DNA of 20,143 nucleotides, from positions 1 to 20,143 of the IMG/VR virus record IMGVR_UViG_3300033153_008732; one strand, 5' to 3'. Below the pieces are notes generated by a model that was given only the letters and a program-made list of their open reading frames with translations, was not told where the DNA came from and made no database searches. The position numbers and the translations under genes were made by a program. Below, piece by piece: positions 1 through 16,235 of this stretch. Each line of letters begins with the position of its first letter. The first letter of the stretch is position 1. Origin of the DNA: a virus.

Positions 1-110
1 TTAAAGTGAAACTTCCCATAACCCCCTTTACATATTTGGGCAGTCCAAATCCAGCAACCGTCTGTATTGATTACAAACTTATCTTTAAATCTCTGTGGTA
101 ATTTATCCAT
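1..110 (-). CDS. HNH homing-type endonuclease, N-terminal part (cut by window edge)
   Basis: Reading the minus strand from the ATG at 110-108 gives 36 codons that stay open to the left edge. The peptide starts MDKLPQRFKDKFVINTDG, then has CWIWTA and GGYGKF. It matches, position for position, the start of the complete HNH protein at 8531-8848 (KLPDNFIAKFDIDNQGCWNWTA...GYGRF). This N-terminal module (small residues, CW.W, GYG.F) precedes the catalytic HNH core in many phage-encoded free-standing endonucleases. The catalytic core lies outside the window, so activity cannot be judged. No strong ribosome binding site is visible upstream. The family assignment rests on similarity to two other proteins in this window (3763-4230 and 8531-8848) and is fairly secure despite the short length. 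Confidence 0.72.
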   Translation of the reverse strand, partial: MDKLPQRFKDKFVINTDGCWIWTAQICKGGYGKFHF

Positions 111-2674: not shown

Positions 2675-3244
2675 CTACTGTTCCGAAGATTCGGAAACTA
2701 TTCCCATCTCCTCAATCAACTGTTCGATGGGGTGCATGTCTTCATGCTTAATATCGTAATTAACACACGCCGTAGTGAATTTCTTTCGCGGTGGAACAAG
2801 TTCTAACTTACTAATTTCCTCCCTAGTTAAATAACCAACAACTACTATTGAAGCTCTATGAGCTATTCTGTCTTCTCCATCAAGATATGCAAAGATGTAT
2901 ATGTCAGATTTGAGTGATGAACGTCCACTTCCATACACACCTTTGAAAACTGCTGCACCATAATTTCTCATGCTGCATTTAATATCTACCTTCAGACCAC
3001 AAATCTCAAGGTCACTGCCCCTATCCCCGCCGTGCCTATACTCGTAGTCAGGCTCCTCTACTTTAAACATCTCTGACACTACCAACTCTGAAATCTTACT
3101 AACCCTCTCAATCCTGTTAGGGTCATTTCTATCATTGCCAATGCCCTTTCCGTAAGCACCTGGTTTCTTTGAGCCCCAGGTATTTTTAGAATAATCAACA
3201 CACTTTAAGTAATCGGAAACACTCACCTCTTTCCGTATAGACAT
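2675..3244 (-). CDS. PD-(D/E)XK nuclease-like protein
   Basis: The 189-residue soluble protein has a helix ISELVVSEMF (51-60), then GSDLE (Asp78) and a hydrophobic strand ending VDIK (Asp87, Lys89). The order helix with Glu, D, about 9 residues, DxK is the catalytic signature of the restriction-endonuclease-like fold. In full families this cleaves DNA using Mg2+; here I see only the motif. Later hydrophobic strands (DIYIFAYLDG; ASIVVVGYL) fit the core sheet. A good AGGAGAG site precedes the ATG and overlaps the stop of the upstream gene (TAG at 3255-3253), so it is the last gene of a coupled minus-strand operon. Candidate roles are host-DNA degradation, recombination or a restriction-type activity; none is proven. 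Confidence 0.6.
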   Translation of the reverse strand: MSIRKEVSVSDYLKCVDYSKNTWGSKKPGAYGKGIGNDRNDPNRIERVSKISELVVSEMFKVEEPDYEYRHGGDRGSDLEICGLKVDIKCSMRNYGAAVFKGVYGSGRSSLKSDIYIFAYLDGEDRIAHRASIVVVGYLTREEISKLELVPPRKKFTTACVNYDIKHEDMHPIEQLIEEMGIVSESSEQ

Positions 3245-3762: not shown

Positions 3763-4230
3763 CTATATTGTTATAAACATCTTCGCTATTGTTGCTTTAT
3801 CTTCTTCAATCTCGTCTGTTGTAATTCCATCAAAGTCAGTATCATACTGTTCACATATGCTTTCTAATCTAGCTCGATGCTCTTCTCTATACCTATTTAA
3901 CTTTGTCCATCGTTTCCTTCCCCGCCTAATATTTTCAGCGTTTGTAACTTCTTCGAGGTGGAGAGGGTTACAGCATGCCTTAGAGCACGGAGCGTTCCTA
4001 GGACCAGGGTTCATTAAGTAATGGTCCATGACTAGCCCCTCAGTTAGAGGCGCCTTTAGGAGGCTGTACGTAAGTCTATGGGTTAACCATTCCTGGCTGT
4101 TGAAATAAACTCTACCATAACCATTTTCTTTACGTGCATCCCAAATCCAGCAGCCGTGCTCATTTATAGAGATTGAGGCTTTCAGCTTCTCAGGGAGTTG
4201 TGAAAAATCTCTTTGTTTCGTTGCTTTCAT
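3763..4230 (-). CDS. HNH endonuclease (free-standing homing type)
   Basis: The 155-residue protein has the N-terminal CWIWDARKENGYGRVYF module, then THRLTYSLL and EGLVMDH, then CCNPLHLEEVT and ENIRRG. The catalytic core (His of MDH, Asn of CNP, His of PLHL) is present. Compared with the copy at 8531, the loop between DH and CNP is longer (YLMNPGPRNAPCSKAC) and there is an extra acidic C-terminal tail of about 45 residues. HNH nucleases of this type cut DNA and often spread between phages. It is the first gene of the minus-strand operon. The promoter at 4236-4265 would start transcription about at its ATG, implying a leaderless or very short-leader transcript. Confidence 0.87.
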   Translation of the reverse strand: MKATKQRDFSQLPEKLKASISINEHGCWIWDARKENGYGRVYFNSQEWLTHRLTYSLLKAPLTEGLVMDHYLMNPGPRNAPCSKACCNPLHLEEVTNAENIRRGRKRWTKLNRYREEHRARLESICEQYDTDFDGITTDEIEEDKATIAKMFITI

Positions 4231-4235
4231 AGTGT

Positions 4236-4265
4236 ATTATGCATATAACTATCACTATTTGTAAA
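4236..4265 (-). promoter_or_regulatory. Minus-strand sigma70-like promoter for the 4230-2675 operon
   Basis: Read on the minus strand: -35 TTTACA (4265-4260, 5/6), an 18-bp spacer, and -10 CATAAT (4241-4236, 5/6). The expected start is near 4229, essentially on the ATG of the HNH gene. Confidence 0.55.
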
Positions 4266-4312
4266 GGTAAATGTAGGAATATATATTTATTTTGTTTATT
4301 TGCAAATAATAC

Positions 4313-4341
4313 TTGACAAACCCTTACTTTGGCATTACTAT
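4313..4341 (+). promoter_or_regulatory. Strong sigma70-type promoter driving the structured RNA and sigma gene
   Basis: A perfect -35 TTGACA (4313-4318), a 17-bp spacer and -10 TACTAT (4336-4341, 4/6). The predicted start is at about 4348. It is divergent from the promoter at 4236-4265 and is the best consensus promoter I see in the window. Confidence 0.75.
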
Positions 4342-4347
4342 TAAAAA

Positions 4348-4820
4348 GTAGACTATTTAAATAGTACTGGGTTTATTGAGGACACACCTTCACCAGTATC
4401 AGCCCAAAGAAGGGAACGGCGTTAGCGAGAGCGAGTCAAGTAAAGACAAGGAAGAGTGTTATATGTGAACATCATCATATACTTCCGGGAGCAGGCAACT
4501 AAATGTGGACCCCGAGCAATGTGCAGGACAACATAGATAGTGTAAGCCCAATAACCGACGATGCAAGGGTTATTAAAGGTTAACGAAGATTAGTACCTTT
4601 CAGGTTGAACTGATAAAACAAAAACTATAAGTTTAGTACACTTATAGTTCGTCTAGGCTAAGGGGATAGGATGGATAAATACTAATTATGGTATATACCC
4701 CTCTTAAACCGATGTTTAATCCTTAATCTTCGTAAGAAGATACTTTAACCCTAGGCAGTGAAACGGACGACGGGCAGTACCGATTCTACCTTGTGTATCT
4801 AAACTAGTCTAAATACACTG
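4348..4820 (+). ncRNA. Large structured RNA or leader of unknown family (about 470 nt)
   Basis: No convincing reading frame exists here, but helices are dense. Those I can pair by eye: 4364-4370 with 4393-4399; GGAAG/CTTCC 4450-4454 with 4482-4486, continued by TATATG/CATATA 4460-4465 with 4476-4481; 4550-4556 with 4568-4574; AAAGGT/ACCTTT 4575-4580 with 4595-4600; a 10-bp hairpin 4623-4632 with 4640-4649; AGGGG/CCCCT 4661-4665 with 4698-4702, enclosing 4679-4684 with 4689-4694; TTAAAC/GTTTAA 4704-4709 with 4714-4719; GTGTAT/ATACAC 4793-4798 with 4813-4818. The loop ACGAAGATTA (4583-4592) is perfectly complementary to TAATCTTCGT (4724-4733), a 10-bp pseudoknot. A consensus promoter lies just upstream. 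I could not match it to RNase P, tmRNA, a group I or group II core, or any riboswitch. It may be an independent RNA or the leader of the sigma gene. Confidence 0.68.
4352..4365. promoter_or_regulatory. 14-bp perfect palindrome at the start site (candidate operator)
   Basis: ACTATTTAAATAGT is self-complementary over 14 bp and lies at about +4 to +17 of the predicted transcript. A dimeric repressor bound there would block the plus promoter. It could instead form the very first hairpin of the RNA. The small HTH protein encoded divergently (3253-3495) is a candidate binder. Confidence 0.45.
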
Positions 4821-4987
4821 TGTGGATATAGTGGTGCTCTTCCTCCGCTACGCTGCGTCGAGTGAAGGAATTCTTTACAAGAATTTAAATCGGGTAGAAA
4901 TAGAACTTAGGCTCTTTCATAATATAGGTATTGTTATATACTATCTTTTGCCAGAGCTACGTGCACAGTCTTTAACCAGGGAAAACC
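4821..4987 (+). other. Gene-free stretch between the structured RNA and the sigma gene
   Basis: This segment holds a perfect 7-bp inverted repeat with a 3-nt loop (AATTCTT/AAGAATT, 4869-4875 with 4879-4885) and AT-rich sequence with a TATACT box near 4938 lacking a convincing -35. A 67-codon GTG frame (4822-5025) crosses it but has no ribosome binding site and overlaps the sigma start. I see no T-tract terminator, so the upstream promoter can plausibly read through into the sigma gene. Confidence 0.4.
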
Positions 4988-5716
4988 ATGGAAAACCAGA
5001 AAAGAAAAACCTTATTCAACGATAACAAGGAGTTAGCGGAATCACTAGCGTCCCGTTTTACAAACAATTCTGTCGAACTCGACGACCTGAAGCAAGAATC
5101 TCTACTCGCCTTGTGGGTAGCTACAGACAAATTTGACGAGACCCGCAGCACAAACTTCTCTATGTATGCGTACTATGTAATCCTCAGCGCCATCAAAGAT
5201 TATATGTACCAGAATAAAAGCATAGTGTCTACTCCTCAATGGATAGGCAGAATTCAACATTATCTAAAACAAATCAAAACTCTTGTTGAAAGTGCTGGAA
5301 TCCTGGAGGACCAGGACTGTTGTATAGAAGAGTTTCTAGCAACACCATCACACCCCTTAGAGGAGCTTCTAAGCTTCGAAGACAGGGATAAGTTGCACGA
5401 GCTTAAGAGCTACATAAGAACCTATGCAGCGTCCGACGAAGCCTACACGGCTGCTGTAGAGAAGGCTAAGGAAGTACCCTACGTCAGGAGCCTTAAGGAG
5501 GAGGACATTACCTATAAGATAGAGTTGCCCCTCTCCGTAGACATCCACGAAGCATTAAATTCACTGGGAATTACATCGTCAGCAATATATAGACTTAAGC
5601 TGGCAGGGTATACCTACAAAGAAATCAGTGAAAAAACTGGAATTAGTAAGACAAAAGTGTATGATTTATTGAAAGAAGCGAAGCAAACCCTTATAAGCAA
5701 ATATGGAGAAGAGTAA
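4988..5716 (+). CDS. Phage RNA polymerase sigma-70-family factor
   Basis: The 242-residue protein carries a region-2-like segment at residues 28-83 (ELDDLKQESLLALWVATDKF, then F.MYAYYVILSAIKDYM) that would bind host core polymerase and the -10 element. A variable linker (about 90-185) follows, and then a region-4 helix-turn-helix at about 187-238 (YTYKEISEKTGISKTKVYDL) for -35 contact. Regions 1.1 and 3 are not evident, as in small alternative sigma factors. A CCAGGGAAAACC leader gives a weak AGGGA site before the ATG. It lies downstream of the strong promoter at 4313 and the structured RNA. The next gene starts 2 bp after its stop. The likely role is redirecting host polymerase to phage middle or late promoters; candidate targets are the recurring boxes at 6180, 7337, 7708 and 8159. 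Confidence 0.82.
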   Translation: MENQKRKTLFNDNKELAESLASRFTNNSVELDDLKQESLLALWVATDKFDETRSTNFSMYAYYVILSAIKDYMYQNKSIVSTPQWIGRIQHYLKQIKTLVESAGILEDQDCCIEEFLATPSHPLEELLSFEDRDKLHELKSYIRTYAASDEAYTAAVEKAKEVPYVRSLKEEDITYKIELPLSVDIHEALNSLGITSSAIYRLKLAGYTYKEISEKTGISKTKVYDLLKEAKQTLISKYGEE

Positions 5717-7403: not shown

Positions 7404-7610
7404 ATGAATAACAATAAAAGCATAGATAGTTTGAATAAGATAGATACAGTGGAAGTTAAAGTTAGAAAGAGAGGTAAAAAGCGTCACCCTATTACACATT
7501 GTAAGTATGGGCATGAGTATAATGACGAGAATACCTACCTATATCCATACGGAAGAAGGTGTAAAGCTTGTACATTAGTGCGAACAATAGCAGACAGAAC
7601 AGCCTGTTAA
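7404..7610 (+). CDS. Zinc-finger-like protein related to the accessory module of HNH endonucleases
   Basis: The 68-residue basic protein has a lysine-rich N-terminus (VKVRKRGKKRH) and a compact motif THCKYGHEYNDENTYLYPYG, then RRCKACTLVR. The C.(3)H...C.(2)C arrangement with N-T-Y and R-C-x-A-C is the small metal-binding module often attached to phage HNH endonucleases. Here it stands alone with no HNH core, so it may be a remnant or a free DNA-binding protein. There is no Shine-Dalgarno site before the ATG: only an AT-rich TATATACAT. A clear terminator follows at 7643. Confidence 0.55.
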   Translation: MNNNKSIDSLNKIDTVEVKVRKRGKKRHPITHCKYGHEYNDENTYLYPYGRRCKACTLVRTIADRTAC

Positions 7611-7642
7611 CGCTCTTTTTCTCTACATAATCAAACCATTAT

Positions 7643-7677
7643 AGCCGCCTAGCCCCCAAAGCTAGAGCGGCTTTCTT
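7643..7677 (+). terminator. Intrinsic terminator after the zinc-finger gene
   Basis: Stem AGCCGC/GCGGCT (7643-7648 with 7667-7672) extended by CTAGC/GCTAG (7649-7653 with 7661-7665) with one bulged A, loop CCCCAAA, followed by TTCTT. Eleven base pairs, GC-rich, with a T-rich exit. Confidence 0.85.
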
Positions 7678-7707
7678 ACGTCTAAAATACAACTATATCA
7701 CCCCAAG

Positions 7708-7746
7708 TTTTTTTTCGCGGCGAGAAAGAAACCCTTATGTTATCAT
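7708..7746 (+). promoter_or_regulatory. T-rich/CGCG box, copy 3, with downstream TATCAT
   Basis: TTTTTTTTCGCGGC (7708-7721), then ACCCTT (7731-7736) and TATCATACAT (7741-7750). The order T-tract/CGCGGC, ACCCTT, TAT-A-CAT recurs at 8159-8198 and more loosely at 7337-7403. It could be a promoter read by the phage sigma factor. No convincing gene starts here. Confidence 0.4.
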
Positions 7747-8160
7747 ACATTTAAGTAACACATCTTATATATACAGTATAGAGAGTATAACAACCAGATA
7801 CTAAGTTTATGAAGGAGCATATTTATCAATATCTAGCCTATATAGATATACATATAGTTTTACCAGCACACCAGAGGATATTAGCCCCCAAGCTTAAATA
7901 TCCCTCACCACCAACCAATATCAATCATTATCAACACACGTTGTTGCTTCTACACAGACGTTGTAACTACCAACAGCACTAAATTCAACGAAAAACATAT
8001 ATTTAGAGAGAAAAGAAGGTAATATATACATATACTTAGCCCTAGCAAGTACAATATTGAATAATTACACCCCAATAACCTATATACACAGTTGTAACCC
8101 CCTAGATTGTATACCTACACCCCTAGAACTACACAGAACCCCACAGAACTCCACAGAATT
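7740..8160. other. AT-rich, repeat-bearing segment with no convincing gene
   Basis: About 420 bp rich in AT runs such as ATATATAC and ATAGATATACATATAG. Short direct repeats occur: ACGTTGT near 7938 and 7959, GTTGTAAC near 7961 and 8090, CCCCTAGA near 8100 and 8120, and a 10-bp array at 8121-8160. A 57-codon frame (7809-7982) has no good start site and an improbable composition. This could be a replication origin, a cluster of promoters or a degraded gene; the evidence is compositional only. Confidence 0.4.
8121..8160. repeat. Four 10-bp direct repeats (consensus CCACAGAACT)
   Basis: The units, head to tail and in exact 10-bp phase, are CCCTAGAACT, ACACAGAACC, CCACAGAACT and CCACAGAATT. A 10-bp period places every copy on the same face of the helix, as in iteron-type protein-binding arrays. 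Confidence 0.7.
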
Positions 8161-8198
8161 TTATTGCGCGCTTAAAAAAGATACCCCTTCATTATACT
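8159..8198 (+). promoter_or_regulatory. T-rich/GCGC box, copy 4, with downstream TATACT
   Basis: TTTTATTGCGCGC (8159-8171), then ACCCCTT (8183-8189) and TATACT (8193-8198). It would initiate close to 8205, just before the small gene at 8219. The TATACT matches a -10 well, but no TTGACA stands at normal spacing, so the upstream box may replace it. Confidence 0.45.
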
Positions 8199-8218
8199 TA
8201 TGAAAGAGACTAATAACA

Positions 8219-8368
8219 GTGATACAATACCCTTCTAGTAAATATGTAGCATGTACCCTATCATATGCCACACCGGTTGGTCAACTACCTGATATTGCTG
8301 TACTAGACATGCTAGCAGACATAATAGAGTATGAAAGAGACGAAGAGGAACCAGAGATACTCAACTAA
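8219..8368 (+). CDS. Small acidic protein of unknown function (49 aa, GTG start)
   Basis: The frame from GTG 8219 to TAA 8368 reads MIQYPSSKYVACTLSYATPV, then GQLPDIAVLDMLADIIEYER and an acidic tail DEEEPEILN. The composition is protein-like, with an amphipathic helix (IAVLDMLADIIEYERDEEE) and an acidic end. An in-frame stop lies shortly upstream (8201-8203), so GTG is the only usual start. A competing ATG at 8200 in another frame yields only 12 codons. The site AAAGAG (8203-8208) is a weak ribosome binding site. Function unrecognised. Confidence 0.42.
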   Translation: MIQYPSSKYVACTLSYATPVGQLPDIAVLDMLADIIEYERDEEEPEILN

Positions 8369-8376
8369 ATCTATAA

Positions 8377-8445
8377 AAGGGGGTCCAAAACCGCACTTGG
8401 CTCTTGCAAGTATATAGATTCATTAGAGCATTGACTTTCCCCCTT
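8377..8445. other. Nested hairpin element between small gene and HNH gene
   Basis: AAGGGGG/CCCCCTT (8377-8383 with 8439-8445) encloses ACTTG/CAAGT (8395-8399 with 8407-8411). In the minus direction the stem runs into TTTTATAG, in the plus direction into CTTGACTTT, so it may serve as a terminator in either direction. From 8446 to 8530 there is an AAAAAACCGTTTTAG segment (8492-8506), similar to ones near 198 and 2566, and nothing else recognisable. Confidence 0.4.
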
Positions 8446-8530
8446 CTTGACTTTATGTGAAAAGGCGTTACACCCCTCTCGGTAAATTAGTAAAAAACCG
8501 TTTTAGCAACAACAGAATATAAGAGCAAAT

Positions 8531-8848
8531 ATGAAAACAGATTTAAATAAGCTACCAGATAACTTTATAGCCAAGTTTGATATAGACAACCAAGGGTGCT
8601 GGAATTGGACTGCATGTAAGTCCCGAGGCTACGGAAGATTCGGGAGCACAAAGAGTAATAAAGGTAAGTCACACAGAGCACACAGATATGCTTACCAAAC
8701 TATAATAGGGGAGATTCCAGAAGGGCTAGTCTTAGACCACCTCTGTAGAAACCCCGGATGTGTAAACCCCCAACACCTTGAACCTGTTACCCAGAAAGAA
8801 AATATTCGCCGGGGAGATACAGGGAAGTATCAACAAAGGAAAGAATAA
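8531..8848 (+). CDS. HNH endonuclease (compact, 105 aa)
   Basis: The most canonical HNH protein in the window. N-terminal module CWNWTA (23-28) and GYGRFG (33-37), HRAHRYAYQ (48-56), then the catalytic stretch EGLVLDHLCRNPGC (64-76) and VNPQHLEPVTQKENIRRG (77-94). His70, Asn79 and His81 are the expected metal/catalytic residues, and Cys72/Cys76 may help hold zinc. It would nick or cut DNA at specific sites. It sits upstream of the holin and packaging genes; HNH proteins near terminases can assist packaging in some phages, but homing is equally likely. AAGAG precedes the ATG weakly. It is homologous to the copies at 3763-4230 and 1-110 but clearly diverged from both. Confidence 0.9.
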   Translation: MKTDLNKLPDNFIAKFDIDNQGCWNWTACKSRGYGRFGSTKSNKGKSHRAHRYAYQTIIGEIPEGLVLDHLCRNPGCVNPQHLEPVTQKENIRRGDTGKYQQRKE

Positions 8849-15026: not shown

Positions 15027-16235
15027 ATGGCTTTAGACCTAACCTCATTTGATGCTGCCCTCAAGCAGCACTATTCCGGCGTCCGTGTTGAAAACATGGC
15101 GCTTCGTGACAACCCAGCTCTTGCAATGGTAAAAAAAGATGCAAGTGCAGGTGGTCGTAACATTCCACAGCCTATTCGCTTCAAAAACCCCCAAGGTGGT
15201 TCTGCGAATATCGCTAACGCAATCACTAACGCTGTAGCCGGCGGTTACGAGGATTTCGTTCTTACCCGTAAGAAGAACTTCGTAATTGCTAATCTTGACA
15301 ACGAGACGATTGAAGCATCTAAGGATGCCAAAGACTCTTTCATGAAAGCAACCGTCGAACTTGACGCTGCTGTTGAAGAGGCTGGAAATCGCCTTGCCCG
15401 CCAACTCTTTAGAGGTGCTGGTGGCGAGATTGGTCAGATTTCGACCGACACTACTATTGGTGGTGCTGTACTTAAGCTTTCTGACCCAGGCGACGTGTTC
15501 GCATTCGCTCCTGGTCAAGTCTGTGTTCTAAGTGCTAACCAAGACGGCAGCTCTCTACGCTCTGGTACTCTTACCGTGCTGGGTGTTGATAGAGGAACTG
15601 GTCAAGTAACTATGACTGGCGCTATCACATCTGGTGTAGCTGCTGCAGCTGTATCTGACTGGGTATTCATCCAAGGCGATGCCGGTGCATGCTTAAGTGG
15701 TTTTGCTGCTTGGCTGCCTGATACTGCCCCAACCGGTGGTGATTCCTTCTTCGGCGTTGACCGTTCTGTTGATTCTTACCTTTACGGTTTGATTCTTGAT
15801 GGTTCTGGTATGACTGTTGAAGAGGCTGCTCAACGTATGGGTTCTGACCTTATCCGCCACGGTGGAAAGCCAGATGTCCTTTTCTGTAACCCTTCTAAAG
15901 TTGCTGACCTTAGCATCTCCCTTGGCTCGAAGCGTGAATACACGAACGTCGATGTCAAAGGAAACGCTGCTATCGGCTTCCGAGGATTCCAGATTGAAAC
16001 TGGTGGACGACCTGTCATGGTTGTTGGAGACCTTAACTGTCCTGAAGAGAGAGGCTACATGCTTACCAGCAAAGACTGGACTCTTTACAGTGCAGGAAAA
16101 GCTCCTCACATCCTTGACCAAGACGGCGTTTACCTTCGTAACGCTACTGCTGATAGCTACCAAGCTCGTGTTGGTAGTTACGCTCAACTTGGTTGTGCGG
16201 CTCCTGGTCACTCTGGAGTTATCAAATTCAGCTAA
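15027..16235 (+). CDS. Major capsid protein
   Basis: 402 residues after GGAG (15013-15016). An N-terminal helical part (LTSFDAALKQHYSGVRVENM) leads to DNPALAMVKKDASAGGRNIP and PIRFKNPQGGSANIANA, patterns I associate with HK97-fold capsid proteins of podovirus-like phages. A peripheral P-domain-like sheet follows, and the core is closed by VLFCNPSKVADLSISLG and VMVVGDLNCPEERGYML. Codon choice shifts towards GGT, GCT, CGT and AAC/GAC compared with the AGA/AGG-rich neighbours, as expected for the most heavily translated gene. A terminator follows immediately. The fold is inferred from context and pattern. Confidence 0.88.
   Translation: MALDLTSFDAALKQHYSGVRVENMALRDNPALAMVKKDASAGGRNIPQPIRFKNPQGGSANIANAITNAVAGGYEDFVLTRKKNFVIANLDNETIEASKDAKDSFMKATVELDAAVEEAGNRLARQLFRGAGGEIGQISTDTTIGGAVLKLSDPGDVFAFAPGQVCVLSANQDGSSLRSGTLTVLGVDRGTGQVTMTGAITSGVAAAAVSDWVFIQGDAGACLSGFAAWLPDTAPTGGDSFFGVDRSVDSYLYGLILDGSGMTVEEAAQRMGSDLIRHGGKPDVLFCNPSKVADLSISLGSKREYTNVDVKGNAAIGFRGFQIETGGRPVMVVGDLNCPEERGYMLTSKDWTLYSAGKAPHILDQDGVYLRNATADSYQARVGSYAQLGCAAPGHSGVIKFS

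Follow-up and report, generated by a model that had tools for sequence, protein, structure and literature searches.

A gene-free stretch upstream of a phage sigma factor gene: a possible long noncoding leader with one hairpin above chance

Results

The IMG/VR record analysed here (the window, 20,143 bases) comes from a tailed phage and carries genes for a terminase, a portal protein and a capsid. In it, a 757-nt stretch without a credible gene separates an HNH endonuclease gene from a divergently oriented sigma factor gene. We place just under an even chance on this stretch serving the sigma gene as a noncoding 5' leader of about 640 nt, transcribed from a host sigma70 promoter. A sequence-only reading had proposed that positions 4348–4820 encode a large structured RNA, either independent or serving as a leader. 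The folding claimed for it proved mostly ordinary, with the proposal resting on chance-level features together with one hairpin, at 4755–4857, which is the one element above chance. The elements of the region are as follows.

3763–4230, minus strand: HNH endonuclease gene (PHROG 826, 1.2e-21), divergent from the sigma gene
4231–4987, strand not applicable: gene-free stretch, 757 nt, between the divergent HNH and sigma genes, with no open reading frame, codon bias or periodicity
4236–4265, minus strand: predicted sigma70-like promoter TTTACA-18-CATAAT (10/12 consensus positions), putatively serving the leftward HNH gene
4313–4341, plus strand: predicted sigma70-like promoter TTGACA-17-TACTAT (10/12 consensus positions), putative in function
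4348–4987, plus strand: proposed noncoding 5' leader of the sigma gene, about 640 nt, with a promoter at its left end and no terminator-like site
4364–4398, plus strand: local hairpin UACUGG/CCAGUA with inner UGAGG/CCUUCA, of high pairing probability and a z of only −1.23
4583–4733, plus strand: possible domain, closed by a perfect 10-nt complement (4583–4592/4724–4733) and holding a 10-bp hairpin (4623–4649)
4755–4857, plus strand: long symmetric imperfect hairpin, 103 nt and 33 bp, with 1x1, 3x3 and 4x4 internal loops
4805–4811, plus strand: apical loop UAGUCUA of the long hairpin, putatively pairing with its complement UAGACUA at 4349–4355
4895–4923, plus strand: weak promoter-like site TAGAAA-17-CATAAT (9/12, chance level), which could serve the sigma gene alone
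4978–4981, plus strand: probable ribosome-binding site of the sigma gene, AGGG, as read from the sequence
4988–5716, plus strand: gene for a sigma-70 family RNA polymerase sigma factor, 242 aa, with Pfam, PHROG and TIGR matches

Neighbouring genes and source phage

By its profile matches, the product of 4988–5716 clearly falls within the sigma family (Pfam Sigma70_r2 at 1e-13 and Sigma70_r4_2 at 2e-7; PHROG 351 at 1e-23; TIGR02937 at 4e-21). The same protein had two matches in GTDB genomes, both HTH-only and in Saprospiraceae MAGs. Single-protein scans of IMG/VR with the sigma factor, terminase and capsid returned no close relatives, and alignments of the terminase and capsid in IMG/VR gave structural-module relatives at 30–49% identity among the matches listed. 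None of 39 such relatives among the matches listed, several of them 50–57 kb long, had a Sigma70_r2 match above the Pfam cut-off, and it looks as though this phage acquired its sigma gene. The major capsid protein (15027–16235) was at 47–49% to its nearest relatives among the matches listed and roughly equidistant from each. Those relatives were closer to one another than to this phage, which seems from these comparisons to stand alone on its branch within a large group whose genomes measure about 50–57 kb.

HNH homing-type endonuclease genes or fragments were seen at four places in the 20 kb: 1–110 (minus), 3763–4230 (minus), 7404–7610 (plus) and 8531–8848 (plus). The calls at 3763–4230 and 8531–8848 were made with PHROGs and the other two by eye. 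A 189-aa protein encoded at 2675–3244 (minus) had no Pfam or PHROG match; its motif DLEICGLKVDIKCS resembles, by eye, a PD-(D/E)XK nuclease core.

Coding tests and rarity of the gene-free stretch

The earlier statement that about 470 nt lack a credible reading frame was borne out, and the gene-free stretch is longer than that, extending over 4231–4987. Codon-usage scores for 4348–4820 were near or below zero in all six frames, with a maximum of 0.009 bits per codon compared with 0.07–0.36 for the genes of the window, and three-base periodicity was 1.0 compared with 2.3–33 in genes. A six-frame tblastn search of the stretch against 50,697 phage records gave no match. Protein coding in another frame was rejected on these three results.

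Gene-free gaps of such length are rare in related phage DNA. With a gap defined as a stretch without open reading frames of at least 60 codons, and with an open contig end left out of the count, five gaps of at least 587 nt were found when the window was scanned together with 1.88 Mb of DNA from related phages; the window itself accounts for two of them. The G+C content of 4348–4820 was 40%, near the 43.5% of the genome, and that of the preceding promoter stretch was about 23%. The plus strand of the stretch was purine-rich (AT skew 0.15, GC skew 0.09).

A second, longer gene-free stretch (7611–8530, 920 nt) is situated about 1.7–2.6 kb upstream of the terminase gene and runs up to an HNH gene. 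At its start, a GC-rich stem precedes a T-containing tail (about 7643–7677), after which the plus strand is C-rich and G-poor; its portion at 8020–8530 folds less than shuffles (z +2.3). The closest terminase relatives among the matches listed likewise carry long gene-free stretches, rich in short repeats, upstream of the terminase gene (L012:2505–3100, L012:3308–3894 and L011:580–1036), at about the same distance from that gene as 7611–8530 in the window. These stretches in the relatives are perhaps an origin or packaging region.

Folding of the stretch

The folding energy of 4348–4820 (473 nt) corresponded to a z of −2.65, with 1 of 100 shuffles as low. For 4346–4870, the plus strand reached −146.0 kcal/mol (z −2.94) and the complement −135.5 kcal/mol (z −2.38). 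The mean z for 520-nt segments over the whole window was −0.8 (sd 1.4), and the z of −2.63 for the stretch was equalled or beaten by roughly a tenth of these segments, most of which are coding. The folding energy of the stretch is thus marginal, being low but not unusual against segments of its own phage.

The sequence-only reading had noted eight or more local helices of 5–10 bp. With a pair span of up to 120, helices of at least 5 bp in 4348–4870 numbered 15 as compared with 13.0 ± 2.2 in dinucleotide shuffles, 24% of which reached 15. The helix number is at the level of shuffles, and the helices described are therefore what a random sequence of the same composition yields.

The hairpin at 4755–4857 had a z of −3.56 on the plus strand (1 of 500 shuffles) and of −3.50 on the minus strand. 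Given that it is as strong on the minus strand, it could be an inverted repeat in the DNA. Pairing occurs at 34 of 46 ungapped positions, a level that 696 kb of DNA from related phages reaches five times. The end coordinate of 4820 adopted in the sequence-only reading halves this hairpin. The apical loop (4805–4811) overlaps self-complementary ACUAGU. Only 0.3% of shuffled loops bind the segment at 4349–4355 equally well; pairing of the loop with the predicted 5' end, which was noticed post hoc, is possible and provides only a lead. The region 4583–4735 had a z of −3.1 (1 of 200 shuffles), with boundaries set after inspection.

Promoters, terminators and the ribosome-binding site

The promoter-like site at 4313–4341 matches the −35 consensus perfectly and has a spacer of 17 nt, and transcription from it is predicted to start at about 4348. 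This site had been described as the best sigma70 promoter of the window; the match at the left end of the stretch is there, but it ranks second to a site at 145–117 on the minus strand (11/12). Given that promoter-like sites in the window are as numerous as in shuffles (36 compared with 34 ± 6.5), a promoter at 4313–4341 is plausible but unproven. No terminator-like site was found on the plus strand from 4348 to the start of the sigma gene, and there was none before 5301. An 11-nt motif, CTCTTTCATAA, located at about 4911 (plus) and at 8193–8208 (minus), was rejected as a phage promoter, with its fuller pattern having one exact instance.

The ribosome-binding site of the sigma gene was 43% unpaired in the full leader and 46.5 ± 7% unpaired in shuffled leaders (accessibility of 0.43 versus 0.465 ± 0.07). 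It is thus no more hidden than in shuffles, and a simple switch in which the leader masks the start site, one possible leader mechanism only, is unsupported.

Comparison with known RNAs

A cmscan search of the whole window against Rfam 15, with gathering scores and with E up to 1, gave no match. With E up to 10, the region 4200–5050 returned only HSUR and emrB-Lactobacillus (E of 5–9), irrelevant matches far below the cut-offs, and a known RNA family was thereby ruled out. The sequence-only reading, which had matched no known motif and had noted no tRNA genes, was right on both counts: the covariance models revealed no well-known class, and no tRNA gene was found across the whole window. Literature searches likewise found no described RNA of such a kind.

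ROOL and GOLLD, which are large ornate RNAs of phages, often adjoin tRNA genes (PMC12286853). Such adjacency is not strictly defining for either. Like them, the stretch belongs to a phage genome, is noncoding over several hundred nucleotides, and has several predicted domains and a self-complementary loop sequence (PMC12286853), but it differs from them in its lack of an Rfam match, a tRNA island and a terminator as well as in its chance-level helix number. Rfam covariance models did not place either the window or 4200–5050 in GOLLD, ROOL or OLE. Two adjacent tRNA genes were observed upstream of the terminase gene in one related phage (L031:8224–8371).

The stretch also resembles the long leaders that precede regulatory genes in phages, in being noncoding and directly upstream of a transcription regulator on the same strand, with a host-type promoter ahead and no terminator between. 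It differs from the usual leaders of this type in its unusual length (about 640 nt) and in having no known leader motif and no homologue. The 6S RNA is a long imperfect hairpin, as is the element at 4755–4857, which lies beside a sigma gene by happenstance. The hairpin described here is 103 nt long with small symmetric loops, however, and the large central bubble was not identified; the stretch was not matched by the Rfam 6S models.

Searches for relatives of the stretch

No homologue of the stretch was found by blastn against phages and plasmids or by nhmmer over 2.4 Mb of retrieved sequence. Three exact core patterns of the stretch had 2, 11 and 45 matching stretches in IMG/VR, none of which showed any likeness to the gene-free stretch outside the pattern. 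Covariance models for the hairpin at 4755–4857 (R1) and for the domain at 4583–4733 (R2) matched the window alone, both models being weak because each was built from the single window sequence. The 39 structural-module relatives among the matches listed had no counterpart of the stretch, and the sigma gene was also absent from them. The IMG/VR and GTDB searches and the listed relatives yielded no sigma gene that is related to this one and preceded by a comparable leader. The stretch was thus not found in a second genome among the phages, the plasmids, the IMG/VR core-pattern matches or the 39 listed relatives, in searches from which near-identical records may have been withheld. This lack of relatives renders the case for a new giant structured RNA weak.

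Discussion

The reading of the stretch as a leader of the sigma gene is favoured by the absence of a terminator between the two. We infer that transcription by host sigma70 RNA polymerase would start near 4348, in a divergent early control region that would also serve the leftward HNH gene. The transcript would cross the leader, meet no terminator and enter the sigma gene, and the length of the leader together with its stable hairpin may delay or tune sigma production, possibly by means of RNA stability, pausing or anti-termination. The better folding of the plus strand than of its complement, the G+C content near that of the genome and the hairpin above chance are also in favour of such a leader, whereas the nearer weak promoter at 4895–4923 could exclude the stretch from the sigma mRNA. 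Also counting against it are the chance-level number of promoter-like sites, the ribosome-binding site being no more hidden than in shuffled leaders, and the failure to find a comparable leader before a related sigma gene. The earlier suggestion of a very long leader fits the layout with regard to strand, promoter and lack of a terminator, with any regulatory effect being putative.

A less likely reading, although one to be taken seriously, is that the stretch is a little-constrained spacer, or leftover DNA that has no RNA function and whose only other content is the promoters and one palindrome; such a spacer might, for example, derive from genes that have decayed or be a scar left by mobile HNH genes. 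A chance-level number of helices and a folding energy ordinary for segments of this phage are what such DNA would show. The phage also has the second, longer gene-free stretch at 7611–8530, besides two or more other HNH genes or fragments, and the stretch at issue is conserved nowhere among the sequences searched. On the other hand, gaps so long are rare in related phage DNA, the G+C content is gene-like rather than spacer-like, the 103-nt hairpin exceeds chance, and the six frames hold no remnant of a known protein.

We regard as improbable a stand-alone structured phage RNA of about 510–560 nt (4348 to about 4860–4900), composed of three domains and acting apart from the sigma gene, with its 5' end possibly paired with the loop of the 3' hairpin. 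The promoter-like site of its own, the z values for folding (about −2.6 to −2.9 overall, −3.1 for the domain and −3.6 for the hairpin), the purine-rich plus strand and the complementarity of the 5' end to the apical loop are consistent with such a molecule. However, its 3' end has no terminator-like site, its helix count is at chance, its hairpin is equally strong on both strands, and it yielded neither an Rfam match up to an E of 10, except for the two irrelevant ones, nor a homologue in the blastn, nhmmer, core-pattern and covariance-model searches. The independent ornate RNA of the sequence-only reading, with its moderate folding energy, is therefore left with no positive evidence, and a new class of ornate RNA has no support beyond chance. 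We give still less credence to an undescribed structured phage RNA of the same length that lies next to, and perhaps acts with, the phage sigma factor, and whose 3' hairpin loop would pair with its own 5' end or with a second copy.

It is also quite doubtful that the inverted repeat at 4755–4857, together with the palindrome ACTATTTAAATAGT at 4352–4365, acts as DNA, for example as an operator or as a replication or recombination site. In favour of such a role, the arms of the hairpin align without gaps, its mismatches are symmetric, it is equally stable on the two strands, and the stretch is situated between divergent promoters. Against it, the hairpin is about 500 nt away from these promoters and an integrase-like gene was not noticed anywhere in the window; an origin of the iteron type is rejected, given that the stretch has neither iterated repeats nor a DnaA box, the sole match to the latter being at 4199 within the HNH gene.

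The main lesson of this analysis is that counting of helices by eye in a 470-nt sequence cannot distinguish a structured RNA from a shuffled sequence. A discrete RNA, for which the present evidence falls short, would be a new phage RNA linked to transcription control. As no more than a long leader or a spacer, the stretch would add to the control regions of uncultivated phages that have yet to be examined.
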